Shown: positions 547 to 6,607 of the stretch, piece by piece
How the letters are laid out: each line of letters opens with the position of its first letter
How positions within the stretch are numbered: the stretch's first letter is position 1
From: Lentisphaeria bacterium
Lineage (GTDB): Bacteria; Verrucomicrobiota; Lentisphaeria; Victivallales; Victivallaceae
DNA: 33,823 nucleotides
Direction of reading: 5' to 3'
Assembly: GCA_017508015.1 (NCBI GenBank)
Contig: JAFVZS010000009.1
Location: 1 to 33,823 of the forward strand
The notes under the pieces: model-generated
The model's input: the letters and a program-made list of their open reading frames with translations, nothing else
Told to the model about the DNA's origin: nothing
Databases searched by the model: none
Program-made: the position numbers and the translations under genes

Positions 547-3500
547 ATGAAACGGCTCTGGCTGGGCATATTTTGGTTTTTCATACTGCTTTGCGGTGCG
601 GCAGAACCGTCGGCATCACTGGTACTGCTTTATGACCGGGAAGAGGTGACCGTCAATCCTGACGGAACATCCCGCACCACCGATGAGTGCATCTACCGGA
701 TCGTCAATTATGACGGATTGACCGGCATGCGTTCACTGCAGCTGCACTACAACTCTGATTACGGCACATTGCAGGTGACCCATCTGGCAATAGTCAAACC
801 AGACGGCCGCAAGACGGTGCTCGATCCGGCGCAGTTGTCTTCAGTTTCGGTGGAAGACAGTCAGATGGCCTCATCCATCTATGATCCGGCCAACAAGATA
901 CTCACCCTCCGGGTGCCGGGGTTGGAGATCGGGGATAAACTGGAAGTGACCACATTGGAAGTGACCACCAAATCCCGGCTGCCCGGTCACTGGAGCGATA
1001 TAACGGTACTTCAGGCCGCATTTCCCATTGAATATTACGAATATATCGTGCATACCCCGGCCGACAAACCATTGCGCGGCATCTGTATAAAAGATGAAGT
1101 TCCCGGTACGATAACTTATACCAATACCGAAAAAGACGGCATCATCACTTATCGCTGGATCGCCCGCAACGTGCCGCAGGTGGTTCCGGAAAAAGCCATG
1201 CCGCCGCTTTACACCTGTATTCAGAGAGTTCTGGTTTCCACGGTCGGCTCATGGGAGGAAATTTCCCGCTGGTACGATGCGCTCTGTGCGCCGAAACTGG
1301 CTGCGGTAAGCGGTGAAATGCGAAACAAGGCTGCTGAATTGATCGCCGGAAAAGCGACAGATATGGAAAAGATCACCGCCCTTTTTCAATTCGTTTCCCA
1401 ACAGATCCGTTATACCGGCATCACTGATGAAAAAAGCGCACCGGGCTATGAACCGCACGATGTATCCCAAACCTTTGAACGCCGCCACGGGGTCTGCCGG
1501 GATAAGGCGGCTTTGCTGGTGGCGATGCTCCGGTTGGCCGGATTCAATGCCAGTCCGGTGCTTTTCATGTCCGGCTCCCCCAAAGATCCGGAAGTGGCCA
1601 ATATCTACTTCAACCATGCCATTGCCGGAGTTGAACTTGCCGATGGTCAATTTCTGCTGATGGATCCGACCTTTGAAACCACCACCGAACTTTTCCCCGG
1701 TTATCTGGCCGGATTCCCCTATCTGGCGGCCAAACCGGATGGTGCAACGCTGAGTATTGCACCGCAGGTCGATGCGCTGGATCATCATCTGGATATTCAA
1801 AGCTGCGGTACGATGGAGGAAAAAAAATCTGATTTTGTTACCACGGTCAAATTTTCCGGGGTATACGATCAGATGTACCGGGCGGCATTTTCGGAATGGA
1901 CCGGAGAAGATATTGAGAACTTCTTTTCCAGCCGTTTACGCCTGATCTCTCCGGGGGCCCGGCTGACTGAAATCAGTATCCACCCGGAAAACATCCGCGA
2001 TATGAGCAAAGAATTGCATGTCACCCTGCATTACACGATCCCCCACGCTCCTGTGCCGGAGGATTCTGAAAAACTCTTATCCATACCCCGCTGCAGTTTG
2101 ATTCTCGGCATGCTCAATGCAATTTCCTCCCACATTGCGCCGGGGTCCCGCCGTTTTCCGCTGATGCTGCTGCCCCGCTCGGTAAGCGAAAAAATCACCT
2201 TGAAACTGCCGGAAGAATTTGAATTGACCCTGCCGGAAAATCTGCATGTTACAGAAAACGGACTTTTCCGGGTGAGCGGCGATCACCGGTTCCAAAATGG
2301 TACATTAAGCGAAGAATTTTTCTTTGCCGTTGACACGATGCGGCTATCTCCGGCGGATTATTACAAATTCAAAAGTGCCGTTTCCCAAGCCGGATTCATG
2401 TGGCAGAGCCAACCGGTGATCTGCCGCAAAACCGGTTATGATGCGGCGGGGGCCAATATTGAGATTCTGGAACACAGCCGTCATTATCAGCTGCGAAGTT
2501 CTGATTCCCGGCGGGTGGAAACCCGTTATATCCGCAAAATCCTCAACTATGCCGGAGTAAAGGAAGCGGCAAATCTGACTGTACCTTTTATCGAAGGCAG
2601 TGAAACACTGGAAATTTCCGCCACCGTAACCGATTCACAAGGCCGCAGTTTCACGCTCTCTGATAAAGAGATCAACTATATGGATGATCCCGCAACCGCT
2701 TCTGCGCCGCGCTATTTGAAACGCAAACTGGCGGTCATCAGCTTTCCCGGTGTCGATGCCGGAAGTATCATCGACTGCCGCATTGTCCGCCACGTTGCCG
2801 ATCAGCCGTTTTTCTACACGGAAATGCTCACCCGCAGTGATACTCCGGCCCGGCTGTGCCGGGTCATTATTGAGCATCCGGCTCAAATGCGCCTGACAGC
2901 CGCTATTCCGGAAAATATCCGGCACAGCAGTACCATGGGCGGCAAAAACATCATCCGGCGTTACGAAATCAGTGACACTCCCAGACTGCCTTACGAACCG
3001 GGACAGCCGCCGTACAGTTTCTTTATCCCCGCCCTGCGGATATCCGGATTCACCATTCAGGAACTTTACGGACAAATCACCGCCGCCGCATTGGAAAAAG
3101 TCAGCCGTGCCGATGAGTCGGTTGCCGCACTTGCCCGGCAGCTCGCCGCAGATGCTCCGGAATGTGATATTGCCGGCAAAGATCAACTGCAGCAAATCCA
3201 CAGCCCGGAAAATCTGCGCCGCATTTACATTGCTTACGCTCTGGAAAAATATCTTTATCAGCATATCCGGGAAATCGATCTGCCGCTTAATAAGATGCTT
3301 TTCAGTGAATATTCCCTGCCGCAAACCACCTTGCGCGACGGTTATGCCAACAGCGTAGACCGGGCGATAGTGCTGGCGGCCATGCTCAAGGCAACCGGTA
3401 TTGAATTTGAATTCGTTCCGGTCACCTCCACCCCGGCACTGCCGGTCAGGATGCGGCAGGTGATTTCTCCGGCGGAAAACATCTGTACCGCTCTGCTGCT

Positions 3501-4269
3501 CTATCTGCCGCAGTTGAATATCTTCCTCAACGACTCCGGCATTTACGGTACACCGGGAATCCTGCGCCACAGCGGCAATATCATATTCCGCAGTATTGAC
3601 CGCAGTGCCGTTACCGCCGGAGCCCTGAGTGCTTGCAACAATCGCAACGGCACAGTTGTTGACTGTGCGATCGACCTCAAAGCAGACGGATCAGCCACAG
3701 TAAGTGTTGACTACACTTTCTGCGGCAATATTCTGGAAATTGAAAGGGAACGCTTTGCCAGATCGACTCCGGCTTTACAGCGGCAGTATATCGAAACCGG
3801 AGTTGCAGATTTTGATGCCGGTGCAAAATTACTGGAATACAGCTTTGATCCGGATAAACAGCCGCAGCTGACCGTCAAATGGCACATTGACCGTTTCGCC
3901 GGAAAGACCGGGAAATTTGTCTTTTTCCGCTTGCCGGAATACCGGAAGTTTGAAAATCTTTTTCATTTCAGTTCGCCATCCCGCCGGACTCCGTATCTTT
4001 TTTCCGGCAACCGTTTCTGCCGCATAAACTACCGGATCAATGTCCCGGATAATTACACACTCATCCGCAACACTCATCCGGAAAAAACCGTTCTTTCCGG
4101 AGTATTCTGGCGCAAAGATTACCGCCGGGAACAATCGGTACATTTTCTGGATTTCCTTCTGGAAATCCAAGCTGACATGAGCGATCCGGCGATCTTTCAC
4201 CGTCTGCTGGATTTAAGCGGAGCTGTCAACCATAATGATTCAAAAAAAGTTCTTTTTGTTACGGAGTAA
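547..4269 (+). CDS. secreted tandem DUF3857/transglutaminase-like protein; second unit lacks catalytic residues
   Basis: 1240 residues. An N-terminal signal sequence (about residues 1-20, 'LWLGIFWFFILLCGAA') sends it out of the cytoplasm. Residues ~25-200 match the DUF3857 type beta domain; ~270-375 are a transglutaminase-like fold with a visible Cys317-His357-Asp373 triad (motifs 'HGVCRDKAALLVAML', 'FNHAIAG', 'LMDPTF'). From ~610 the architecture repeats: a second DUF3857-like stretch ('YIRKILNYAG', 'DSQGRSFTLS') and a second transglutaminase core ('GYANSVDRAIVLAAML'). There the aligned catalytic Cys is Ser936 and the His is Cys, while the Asp is kept, so this unit is probably binding or structural. 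DUF3857-transglutaminase proteins are periplasmic and mostly uncharacterised; peptide or peptidoglycan substrates are guesses. Its stop overlaps the ATG at 4269 by one base; a better start for the next gene is 4275. Confidence 0.88.
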   Translation: MKRLWLGIFWFFILLCGAAEPSASLVLLYDREEVTVNPDGTSRTTDECIYRIVNYDGLTGMRSLQLHYNSDYGTLQVTHLAIVKPDGRKTVLDPAQLSSVSVEDSQMASSIYDPANKILTLRVPGLEIGDKLEVTTLEVTTKSRLPGHWSDITVLQAAFPIEYYEYIVHTPADKPLRGICIKDEVPGTITYTNTEKDGIITYRWIARNVPQVVPEKAMPPLYTCIQRVLVSTVGSWEEISRWYDALCAPKLAAVSGEMRNKAAELIAGKATDMEKITALFQFVSQQIRYTGITDEKSAPGYEPHDVSQTFERRHGVCRDKAALLVAMLRLAGFNASPVLFMSGSPKDPEVANIYFNHAIAGVELADGQFLLMDPTFETTTELFPGYLAGFPYLAAKPDGATLSIAPQVDALDHHLDIQSCGTMEEKKSDFVTTVKFSGVYDQMYRAAFSEWTGEDIENFFSSRLRLISPGARLTEISIHPENIRDMSKELHVTLHYTIPHAPVPEDSEKLLSIPRCSLILGMLNAISSHIAPGSRRFPLMLLPRSVSEKITLKLPEEFELTLPENLHVTENGLFRVSGDHRFQNGTLSEEFFFAVDTMRLSPADYYKFKSAVSQAGFMWQSQPVICRKTGYDAAGANIEILEHSRHYQLRSSDSRRVETRYIRKILNYAGVKEAANLTVPFIEGSETLEISATVTDSQGRSFTLSDKEINYMDDPATASAPRYLKRKLAVISFPGVDAGSIIDCRIVRHVADQPFFYTEMLTRSDTPARLCRVIIEHPAQMRLTAAIPENIRHSSTMGGKNIIRRYEISDTPRLPYEPGQPPYSFFIPALRISGFTIQELYGQITAAALEKVSRADESVAALARQLAADAPECDIAGKDQLQQIHSPENLRRIYIAYALEKYLYQHIREIDLPLNKMLFSEYSLPQTTLRDGYANSVDRAIVLAAMLKATGIEFEFVPVTSTPALPVRMRQVISPAENICTALLLYLPQLNIFLNDSGIYGTPGILRHSGNIIFRSIDRSAVTAGALSACNNRNGTVVDCAIDLKADGSATVSVDYTFCGNILEIERERFARSTPALQRQYIETGVADFDAGAKLLEYSFDPDKQPQLTVKWHIDRFAGKTGKFVFFRLPEYRKFENLFHFSSPSRRTPYLFSGNRFCRINYRINVPDNYTLIRNTHPEKTVLSGVFWRKDYRREQSVHFLDFLLEIQADMSDPAIFHRLLDLSGAVNHNDSKKVLFVTE

Positions 4270-4274
4270 TGCCC

Positions 4275-4886
4275 ATGAAACTGATTTCCCTGCCGCTCGG
4301 TCCTTTCGCCACCAACTGTTTTCTGGTATTCATACCGGAAAGCAGCGAATTGTTTATCATCGATCCCGGGGCCGATGCAGAAACGATCATCGCCGAAGCG
4401 GAGAAATTCCCCTTCAAGAGTGCGAGAATTCTGTTGACACACGCCCATGTTGATCACATTTCCGCCGCCGGAAAAGTGGCGGAAAAGCTGCATATACCCA
4501 AAGTGGAACTTGCTCCGGAAGATCACGAAATGTATCTGAGCAAAGCCAACGCTCTGCCGCCGTACTTTGATGCGGCCGATGATCTGCCGGATGTTTCCGG
4601 TTTCGATCCCATACCCCGGTGTACCGTGATCCCGCTGCCGGGGCACACCCGGGGCGGCAGCGGTTTCCTCTTTGATGACGGCCGGGAAAAGTTCCTCATT
4701 TCCGGAGATACGATCTTTTGCGGCTCGATCGGCAGAACTGATCTTTACGGCGGGGATTATGCCGAATTGATCAACTCCATTACCGGAAAGCTGCTGACAC
4801 TGCCCGATGATCTGACCGTTTACCCCGGTCACGGCGGCGAAACAACCATCGGCTTTGAAAAGAAACACAATCCATACTTAAATTAA
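4275..4886 (+). CDS. metallo-beta-lactamase-fold hydrolase (glyoxalase II-like)
   Basis: 203 residues from ATG 4275, chosen because GGAG (4263-4266) is 8 bases upstream; an in-frame ATG at 4269 is too close to that site. The metal-binding set of the family is complete: THAHVDH (His56, His58, Asp60, His61), GHTRGG (His124), SGDT (Asp145) and YPGHGG (His186). The length and motifs match the short YcbL-type hydroxyacylglutathione hydrolase-like group, which binds two metal ions and cleaves thioesters or related esters in the cytoplasm. The true substrate cannot be read from sequence. It sits between the transglutaminase protein and pyrK, in what looks like one transcript. Confidence 0.9.
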   Translation: MKLISLPLGPFATNCFLVFIPESSELFIIDPGADAETIIAEAEKFPFKSARILLTHAHVDHISAAGKVAEKLHIPKVELAPEDHEMYLSKANALPPYFDAADDLPDVSGFDPIPRCTVIPLPGHTRGGSGFLFDDGREKFLISGDTIFCGSIGRTDLYGGDYAELINSITGKLLTLPDDLTVYPGHGGETTIGFEKKHNPYLN

Positions 4887-4897
4887 AAGGAATATAT

Positions 4898-5677
4898 ATG
4901 CCGAACTGTACTCTTATAAGTAATGAGCGTATGCACGGGCAATACTTCCGGGCGGTATTTGATGCCCCGGAAATCGCCACGGACGCCACCCCCGGACAAT
5001 TCGTCCACATCCGTATCGACAACCGACTCGACCAGATGCTGCGGCGGCCATTCAGCATCCACAACGCCCTTGACGGCAAATTGACCATTGTTTACAAGGT
5101 CGTCGGCAAAGGAACGCAAACTTTTTCCGAATTGCCCGCCGGGAGTGTCTGCGATATTCTCGGACCTTGCGGCAAAGGATTTTCCGCCCCGGCCGGTGAT
5201 GTGATCCCGGTGGCGGTATGCGGCGGTTACGGAGCAGCGGCGACCTTCATGCTCACCCGTCAGAGCAAAAACGGCGGAGTACTGCTGCTCGGCGCACGCA
5301 ATGAGAAAGATATCCTGCTGACTCAGGAGTACGCCCGGGCCGGATTTCAGGTCAAAGTGGCAACCGATGACGGTTCGATGGGGATCAAGGGCCGGGTAAC
5401 GGATCTTTTTCCGGAACTGCTCAAAGAGTATCAGGGCAAAAAACTCTTTTTCTACGGTTGCGGACCTCATCCGATGCTGATGGCTCTGGCCAAACTGCTC
5501 CGGGAAAAATCTCTGGATGGCGAATTGAGTGTCGATCATATCATGTGCTGCGGAGTGGGAGCGTGCTTCGGCTGTGTGGTAAAAGTCAACGATCATGCTC
5601 ATCCGGGAGAGTGGATGTACGCCCGCAGTTGTGCAGACGGCCCGGTATTCAAGCTGGCAGATATTTATACGGAGTAA
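4898..5677 (+). CDS. pyrK: dihydroorotate dehydrogenase B, electron transfer subunit
   Basis: 259 residues; start ATG with AAAGGAA nearby. PyrK carries FAD and a [2Fe-2S] cluster and passes electrons from the PyrD FMN site to NAD+ in pyrimidine synthesis. Visible features: the FAD-binding RRPFS motif (residues 49-53), a ferredoxin-reductase-like NAD domain with a Gly-rich 'VCGGYGAAATF' segment, and the C-terminal cluster site with Cys218, Cys223, Cys226 and Cys245 (C-x4-C-x2-C-x18-C). All ligands are present and length is normal. It is 6 bases upstream of pyrD, its obligate partner, so the two are co-translated from one message. Confidence 0.95.
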   Translation: MPNCTLISNERMHGQYFRAVFDAPEIATDATPGQFVHIRIDNRLDQMLRRPFSIHNALDGKLTIVYKVVGKGTQTFSELPAGSVCDILGPCGKGFSAPAGDVIPVAVCGGYGAAATFMLTRQSKNGGVLLLGARNEKDILLTQEYARAGFQVKVATDDGSMGIKGRVTDLFPELLKEYQGKKLFFYGCGPHPMLMALAKLLREKSLDGELSVDHIMCCGVGACFGCVVKVNDHAHPGEWMYARSCADGPVFKLADIYTE

Positions 5678-5683
5678 GAAGTT

Positions 5684-6607
5684 ATGGCAGACTTAAAAGT
5701 TGATTTCGGCAAATTCCAGTTGAAAAATCCGGTAATGACCGCTTCCGGCACTTTCGGTTACGGGTTGGAATATTCTCAATTTTATGACATTTCCAAACTC
5801 GGAGCCATCATGGTCAAAGGCATCCGCAGTGTTCCGTCAGACGGCAATCCGACCCCCCGGGTGGCAGAAGTTACCGGCGGCATGCTCAATGCGATCGGTC
5901 TGCAAGGCCCCGGAGTGGAAAAATTTCTTCATGATGAACACTATCTGCCGGGAGTAAAAAAGACCGGAGCAACGGTCATTGTCAATATCTGGGGCAAAAC
6001 CGCCGAGGAATATGCGGAAGTGGCCGCCAGACTTGAAGCCGAAGCAAAGAACGATATCACCGCTTTGGAAATCAATATTTCCTGTCCCAATGTCAAAGCC
6101 GGAGGTGCGGCATTCGGCACCGATCCCAAGCTTGCCGAACAGGTCATTTCCGCCGTCCGCAATGCAACGGCGTTGCCGTTGATCACCAAATTGAGTCCCA
6201 ACGTAACCAGCATTGCAGAATTTGCCCGCATTGCCGAAGCTTGCGGCAGTGATTCAGTATCTTTGATCAATACGCTGTCGGCAATGGCCATTGATATTGA
6301 AACCAGGCGCACCAAACTTGCCAACCGGACCGGCGGATTATCCGGACCGGCAGTCAAGCCGGTGGCGATCCGCATGGTAAATGAAGTTTACAAGGCAGTA
6401 AAGATCCCCATAATCGGCAAGGGCGGCATCTGCAACGGAGCTGACGCTGTGGAATTCATGATTGCCGGAGCAACGGCAGTGGCTGTGGGCACGGCGAATT
6501 TTGTCGATCCATACGTTCCCTTGCAGGTTATCGACTTCATCAATGATTACTGCGACCGTCACGGCATGAAAAGTGTAAGCGAATTGACCGGTTCACTGCT
6601 CAACTGA
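5684..6607 (+). CDS. pyrD: dihydroorotate dehydrogenase, class 1B catalytic subunit
   Basis: 307 residues, the usual size for class 1B PyrD. It oxidises dihydroorotate to orotate using FMN, the fourth step of UMP synthesis, as a cytoplasmic complex with PyrK. The start of the TIM barrel ('LKNPVMTASGTFGYG'), the NISCPNVK loop with the class 1 catalytic Cys134, the 'KLSPNV' strand, and the phosphate-binding 'GKGGICNGADAVEFMIAGA' end are all intact. Adjacent pyrK confirms class 1B rather than 1A. No terminator is visible after it; 78 bases separate it from the next gene. Confidence 0.96.
   Translation: MADLKVDFGKFQLKNPVMTASGTFGYGLEYSQFYDISKLGAIMVKGIRSVPSDGNPTPRVAEVTGGMLNAIGLQGPGVEKFLHDEHYLPGVKKTGATVIVNIWGKTAEEYAEVAARLEAEAKNDITALEINISCPNVKAGGAAFGTDPKLAEQVISAVRNATALPLITKLSPNVTSIAEFARIAEACGSDSVSLINTLSAMAIDIETRRTKLANRTGGLSGPAVKPVAIRMVNEVYKAVKIPIIGKGGICNGADAVEFMIAGATAVAVGTANFVDPYVPLQVIDFINDYCDRHGMKSVSELTGSLLN

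Follow-up and report, generated by a model that had tools for sequence, protein, structure and literature searches.

EPB42 is a eukaryotic member of the transglutaminase family that has lost its activity (PMC10318531), and the inactive transglutaminase domains of other secreted proteins have been proposed as presumed anchors (PMC3482391). Here we analyze the gene at positions 547 to 4,269 of a 33,823-nucleotide stretch of DNA from a Lentisphaeria bacterium (assembly GCA_017508015.1, contig JAFVZS010000009.1), the whole of which we call the window. The gene encodes one chain with two homologous DUF3857-transglutaminase units. The first (unit 1) has an intact Cys-His-Asp site, while the second (unit 2) has lost the Cys and the His. 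To our knowledge, EPB42-type inactive transglutaminases are encoded by a separate gene, have another domain make-up and lack a fused active twin. RloB of Pseudomonas aeruginosa and domains of polymorphic toxins resemble unit 2 in being inactive transglutaminases outside the cytoplasm whose role is presumed to be non-catalytic. They differ in that RloB is fused to seven transmembrane helices and the toxin domains precede RHS repeats; a fused active twin is described for neither in the accessible part of the source.

The only convincing solved relative of either unit is 3KD4, which is BDI_1141 of Parabacteroides distasonis (DUF3857 plus DUF3858) and carries the PDB title 'putative protease'. Like unit 2 it is without the Cys, having a Pro there, but its gene is not fused and lies 13 bp behind an active-type gene. 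In addition, it has a full DUF3858 domain (143 bits), for which unit 2 of the window gives no match; over the Pfam cut-off this domain is found nowhere in the window protein and in only 1 of 33 second units. Single-unit DUF3857-transglutaminase proteins share with unit 1 the order of a DUF3857 domain followed by a transglutaminase core with a Cys motif. They differ from the window protein in having one unit and in reading GDCKD instead of GVC at the nucleophile. In the open-licence PMC literature searched, DUF3857 occurs in a single paper, as the name of a gene adjoining lolA, and 3KD4 in two, the biological one of which cites it as an HHpred match. DUF3858 is not mentioned in that literature, and we found no description of this active/dead pair in it, subscription papers lying outside the search.

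Results and Discussion

The gene is a single open reading frame (ORF) with the following features, in window coordinates.

547..4269, + strand: two-unit DUF3857-transglutaminase gene, 1240 aa, single ORF
547..609, + strand: hydrophobic N-terminal export-type stretch, about residues 1-21, read from the translation
658..1179, + strand: DUF3857 domain of unit 1 (Pfam, 81.5 bits, over cut-off)
1327..1668, + strand: transglutaminase core of unit 1, residues 261-374 (PF01841, 63.8 bits against a cut-off of 23)
1495..1497, + strand: Cys317, nucleophile position of unit 1 (94/94)
1615..1617, + strand: His357 of unit 1 (94/94)
1663..1665, + strand: Asp373 of unit 1 (94/94)
2422..4266, + strand: unit 2, residues 626-1240, Cys and His lost (matched by the profiles of unit 1 and 3KD4)
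2506..2970, + strand: DUF3857 domain of unit 2 (Pfam, 64.4 bits, over cut-off)
3229..3408, + strand: remnant transglutaminase core of unit 2, residues 895-954 (14.6 bits, under the Pfam cut-off of 23)
3352..3354, + strand: Ser936 at the Cys position of unit 2 (column counts, merged alignment and hhalign)
3490..3492, + strand: Ala982 at the His position of unit 2, with Cys980 two residues upstream (hhalign and merged alignment)
3529..3534, + strand: Asn995-Asp996 at the Asp position of unit 2 (Asp996 by hhalign, Asn995 by merged alignment)

Both halves are made up of a DUF3857 domain, a transglutaminase core and a C-terminal part. When they were compared with hhalign, the match ran over 574 columns and nearly end to end (probability 100, E 3.5e-51). 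An earlier note on this DNA had called the units duplicated, and in the sense of homology this holds, with a match that spans their length and reaches beyond the motifs alone. The profile of 3KD4 matches unit 2 with an E value of 8.3e-32 and unit 1 with 4.8e-11. The closest named relative is a Lentisphaerae metagenome-assembled genome entry at 73% identity; L003 is the source of the name Lentisphaerae used here, a group that GTDB places in Verrucomicrobiota.

For the analysis of the active sites, we picked 94 two-unit proteins by score thresholds from loci of relatives at the level of genus, order, class and phylum. Two alignment sets were used, one of 50 rows without L051 but with the one-unit protein L054, and one of 94 rows that includes L051. 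As a check on the thresholds, we searched every ORF of at least 250 aa in the fetched loci (L004 upward) with a hidden Markov model of the DUF3857 part. This recovered 94 two-unit ORFs, all already inside the set, and therefore no fetched two-unit protein has two intact sites. In unit 1, C317, H357 and D373 are each present in 94 of 94 proteins, exactly as the earlier note had assigned them. Position 936 of unit 2 is Ser in 57 proteins, Asn in 12, Thr in 6, Ala in 5 and Arg in 4, with other residues in the rest, and Cys in none (0/94), so that the replacement of the Cys by Ser936 that the note had read from the window is borne out; in four of the 94 second units a Cys is found nearby, at 933 or 939. 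The note had also proposed a Cys in place of the His, at an identical spacing of 16 residues to the Asp. The arithmetic is right for 980 to 996, but the substitution is not supported: by hhalign as well as by merging the two 94-row alignments, the counterpart of His357 is Ala982 and that of Phe355 is position 980, where Phe stands in 68/94 and Cys in 4/94 second units. At 982 itself, His is found in 5/94. For the Asp the two methods disagree: hhalign, like the note, pairs Asp373 with Asp996 (Asp in 69/94), whereas the merged alignment pairs it with Asn995 (Asn in 72/94, Asp in 3/94). As aligned, unit 2 is without the catalytic Cys and His, and the catalytic Asp may be kept in many of its members. 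The degenerate second site recurs in 94/94 homologues with both halves, and the loss is thus conserved.

The scaffold has fared differently from the site. Among the columns that are near-invariant in unit 1, unit 2 retains many structural ones, and the Cys and His columns drift. Residues common to both units are P734 (94/94), E817 (91/94), D938 (91/94), G1060 (93/94) and R1146 (92/94), and the motifs YGNSADRA and LND are peculiar to unit 2. Together with purifying selection on the unit (see below), these private motifs would fit a unit 2 that is catalytic through another set of residues, as would the Asp at or next to the old Asp position in 69/94 proteins, Ser740 (Ser in 79/94) and Lys727 (Lys in 77/94). 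Against this, the best Cys column of unit 2 reaches 14/94, the best His column 31/94 and Ser936 57/94, and we regard such a catalytic role as quite improbable. Two specific candidates were set aside on the same counts, namely a serine nucleophile at 936 (Ser in 57/94) and Cys980 as a relocated nucleophile (Cys in 4/94).

We next looked at how far the two units travel together. The unit-1 and unit-2 profiles were run against 276 genomes of the phylum, many of them drafts, and the match lists were compared by eye. The unit-1 profile (E <= 1e-60) matches in 116 of the 276 genomes and leaves 160 without a match; the unit-2 profile (E <= 1e-10) matches in 136, at a limit that also admits first units and single proteins. 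Unit 2 is present in the same 116 genomes as unit 1, with a match of 2.5e-76 or better in 110 of them. It lies in pieces immediately behind unit 1 in G204, G214, G231 and G277 and as fragments in G066 and G149, and in G296 a unit-2 match was found alone, at a contig edge. Matches of unit 1 cover 22 family codes. Judged by equal frame lengths, both units sit in one open frame in 113 of the 116 genomes, the exceptions being G039, where they are separate genes, and G066 and G149, which have stops in the unit-1 stretch. These in-frame stops may reflect gene decay or assembly errors. Separately, two open frames of about 2040 aa, in L100 and L113, have a DUF3857-transglutaminase unit close to their start and run on beyond it.

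The counts bear on whether chance alone has preserved unit 2 as a neutral relic, or whether the fusion is an artefact of assembly. A lower conservation of unit 2 than of unit 1 and the broken frames of G066 and G149 would agree with this, but the single open frame in 113/116 genomes, among them the one-contig genomes G036, G126, G128 and G186, does not. Selection points the same way. Using the method of Nei and Gojobori on the window protein and L003, a single pair with a fairly high synonymous divergence (dS) that makes the ratios rough, we obtained for unit 1 a nonsynonymous divergence (dN) of 0.164, a dS of 0.887 and a dN/dS of about 0.18, and for unit 2 values of 0.190, 0.823 and about 0.23. 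For the dead core the ratio is about 0.2 (dN 0.112, dS 0.553) and for the live core 0.13 (dN 0.105, dS 0.824). Unit 2 is under purifying selection, all ratios being far below 1. The relic or artefact reading is largely refuted by these counts, and we regard it as highly improbable. That the pair is retained together in nearly all relatives examined suggests instead a dead copy that is needed as a partner and is no relic. At the level of the sequence, the fused active and inactive pair of the earlier note is therefore well founded, with 94/94 degenerate second sites, unit 2 in all 116 unit-1 genomes and purifying selection. By its homology to an active enzyme, its conserved loss of Cys and His and its selective retention, unit 2 fits the description of a pseudoenzyme.

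In the phylogenetic tree, the first halves cluster apart from the second halves throughout the phylum, so that the copies are not recent; a recent in-gene duplication was set aside for this reason. The active/inactive pair is old, given its spread over the 116 genomes.

The units can also be found as separate genes. In Parabacteroides distasonis, a DUF3857-transglutaminase gene of 652 aa carries all three motifs (Cys, His and Asp), and 13 bp behind it follows the 527-aa gene with Pro in place of the Cys. The 527-aa protein matches 3KD4 over 505 residues with 1127 bits and hence is the 3KD4 protein or nearly so. Scored with the models of the two units, the active gene obtains 268 bits with unit 1 and 80 with unit 2, and the inactive gene 110 bits with unit 2 and 48 with unit 1; four active-type ORFs in the same comparison score higher with unit 1. 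In the tree, whose bootstrap had not settled, the active gene joins the first halves at 100/97. The inactive gene sits on a long branch among single units, outside unit 2 in the free tree. When it is held with unit 2, the likelihood is 2.8 higher, and the arrangement is not rejected by the approximately unbiased (AU) test (p-AU 0.54). A single group made of both fused halves, with the Parabacteroides genes outside it, is likewise not rejected (p 0.54), and a duplication at the base of the phylum would be compatible with this. A kinship of the inactive gene to unit 2 is favoured by the scores, but the tree does not settle it. From the AU results and the long branch it follows that the two-gene and the fused arrangements represent either one old partnership or parallel ones.

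In G039, which belongs to the same order as the window, the two units are found on different contigs, and each has a hydrophobic N-terminus of its own. The unit-1 gene has a CBM9-domain gene ahead of it and a histidine kinase gene after it, and the unit-2 gene follows an RNase Y gene; the assembly is a draft and may contain admixture. The separate unit-1 gene (L054) has, unlike the window protein, what we take from the lipobox pattern to be a lipoprotein-like signal start (LNGC). In Persicobacter (L128), an active and an inactive ORF practically abut, the first with GDCKD; they may be a pair of another lineage, with a less certain kinship. An Aureibacter plasmid record showed no adjacent pair. 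The Bacteroidota were thus covered by three plasmid records, of which only that of Parabacteroides has a clear pair, too few for a rate. No matches were found when viral contigs were scanned with A1, P0003 and P0002, or when plasmids were searched with unit 2 by tblastn.

The residue before the nucleophile separates these proteins further. The motif GxC[KR]D occurs in 32 of 36 one-unit ORFs, the check covering this motif alone; those without it are the fragment L032 and the second-unit types L055, P0003 and the second Persicobacter ORF. Residue 316 is Val (GVC) in 94/94 fused first units, in L054 and in the Parabacteroides active gene, and 30 of 30 motif-bearing single units besides the latter two read GDCKD. 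Val316 may mark enzymes that have a dead partner, yet the Persicobacter pair has GDCKD.

What would the partner do? We lean, with moderate confidence, towards an active enzyme with an obligate pseudoenzyme partner in which unit 2 has a helper role. From the sequence we infer an exported protein that would work as a built-in heterodimer at the periplasm or the cell surface. Unit 1 would be the Cys-His-Asp transglutaminase-like enzyme, cutting or transferring amide bonds of a substrate. Unit 2, which shares this scaffold but has lost the catalytic Cys and His, would be its dedicated pseudoenzyme partner, packing on unit 1 and helping to hold the substrate or the active shape. Genes that lie side by side in one lineage and are fused in another are a classical sign of partners that touch; the argument is weaker here because the fused and two-gene arrangements might be parallel.

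Export is predicted from the hydrophobic N-terminus, and a hydrophobic 12-mer lies ahead of the unit-1 domain in 92 of the 95 ORFs that have such a domain, the remaining three (L012, L032 and L046) having cut or shifted starts. This export-type start, together with the precedent of presumed anchors in PMC3482391, could also speak for a unit 2 that serves purely as a structural module or surface anchor and leaves the chemistry of unit 1 untouched. We consider this improbable, as all genomes compared pair the inactive unit with one particular type of active unit and the two units can be separate genes. A further possibility, which we hold to be unlikely, is that unit 2 is an inhibitor or allosteric switch that keeps unit 1 silent up to its release by a ligand or by export. 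Such a switch would agree equally well with the pairing, the fusion and the constraint, and an inhibitor acting in trans would suit the separate genes of Parabacteroides and G039. The fusion into one chain in 113/116 genomes disfavours a detachable unit, though an allosteric one stays compatible. Sequence alone cannot tell substrate binding, site shaping and inhibition apart as modes of the partner, and the substrate-binding or regulatory role that the earlier note suggested for unit 2 is still an inference.

Several points weigh against the helper role that we prefer. First, unit 2 evolves faster, with a mean column identity of 37% against 54% for unit 1. Second, the relation of the Parabacteroides genes to the two units falls short of proof, and the fused and two-gene arrangements might have arisen in parallel. 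Third, the AlphaFold2 models, built on two-row alignments (window and L003), are poor, with a mean predicted local distance difference test score (pLDDT) of 48.4 for residues 22-400 and 45.3 for residues 626-1020. Foldseek ranked 3kd4_A first for both, with TM-scores near 0.3; given these values we did not use the models as evidence of geometry, and the argument for the fold rests on the profile comparison. Fourth, among the 40 anchored loci no neighbouring gene is conserved beyond the genus, and clusters other than the three named below reach at most 8 loci. Since the neighbours are limited to the genus, the context gives no pathway.

Genomic surroundings

We compared 41 loci, of which 40 have the anchor (L144 was missed). 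Directly downstream of the gene, at 4269-6607, follow genes for a metallo-beta-lactamase-fold hydrolase, a PyrK-like and a PyrD-like protein, whose clusters comprise 13, 16 and 15 loci, none of them outside the genus. The picking of ORFs was greedy and, in three loci including the window, let an antisense ORF displace the metallo-hydrolase gene. Upstream lies a divergent ORF of 146 aa (37-477, - strand) without a Pfam match at E 0.001. Eight related loci have a divergent upstream ORF of 158-190 aa (cluster c4), to which the 146-aa ORF of the window does not belong.

Conclusion

In summary, a family of unknown function gains a testable architecture, an active unit with a dead partner that may be fused to it, adjacent or apart. 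As a tentative proposal, which may well fail, we suggest a phylum-spanning obligate pair of transglutaminase folds that would be one chain in Verrucomicrobiota/Lentisphaerae and a two-gene heterodimer in Bacteroidota, with the dead twin controlling or completing the live site. The crystal structure of a dead-type member is already solved (3KD4), and its label 'putative protease' is put in question. Moreover, an active and an inactive unit can persist together as a pair over a wide range of genomes.

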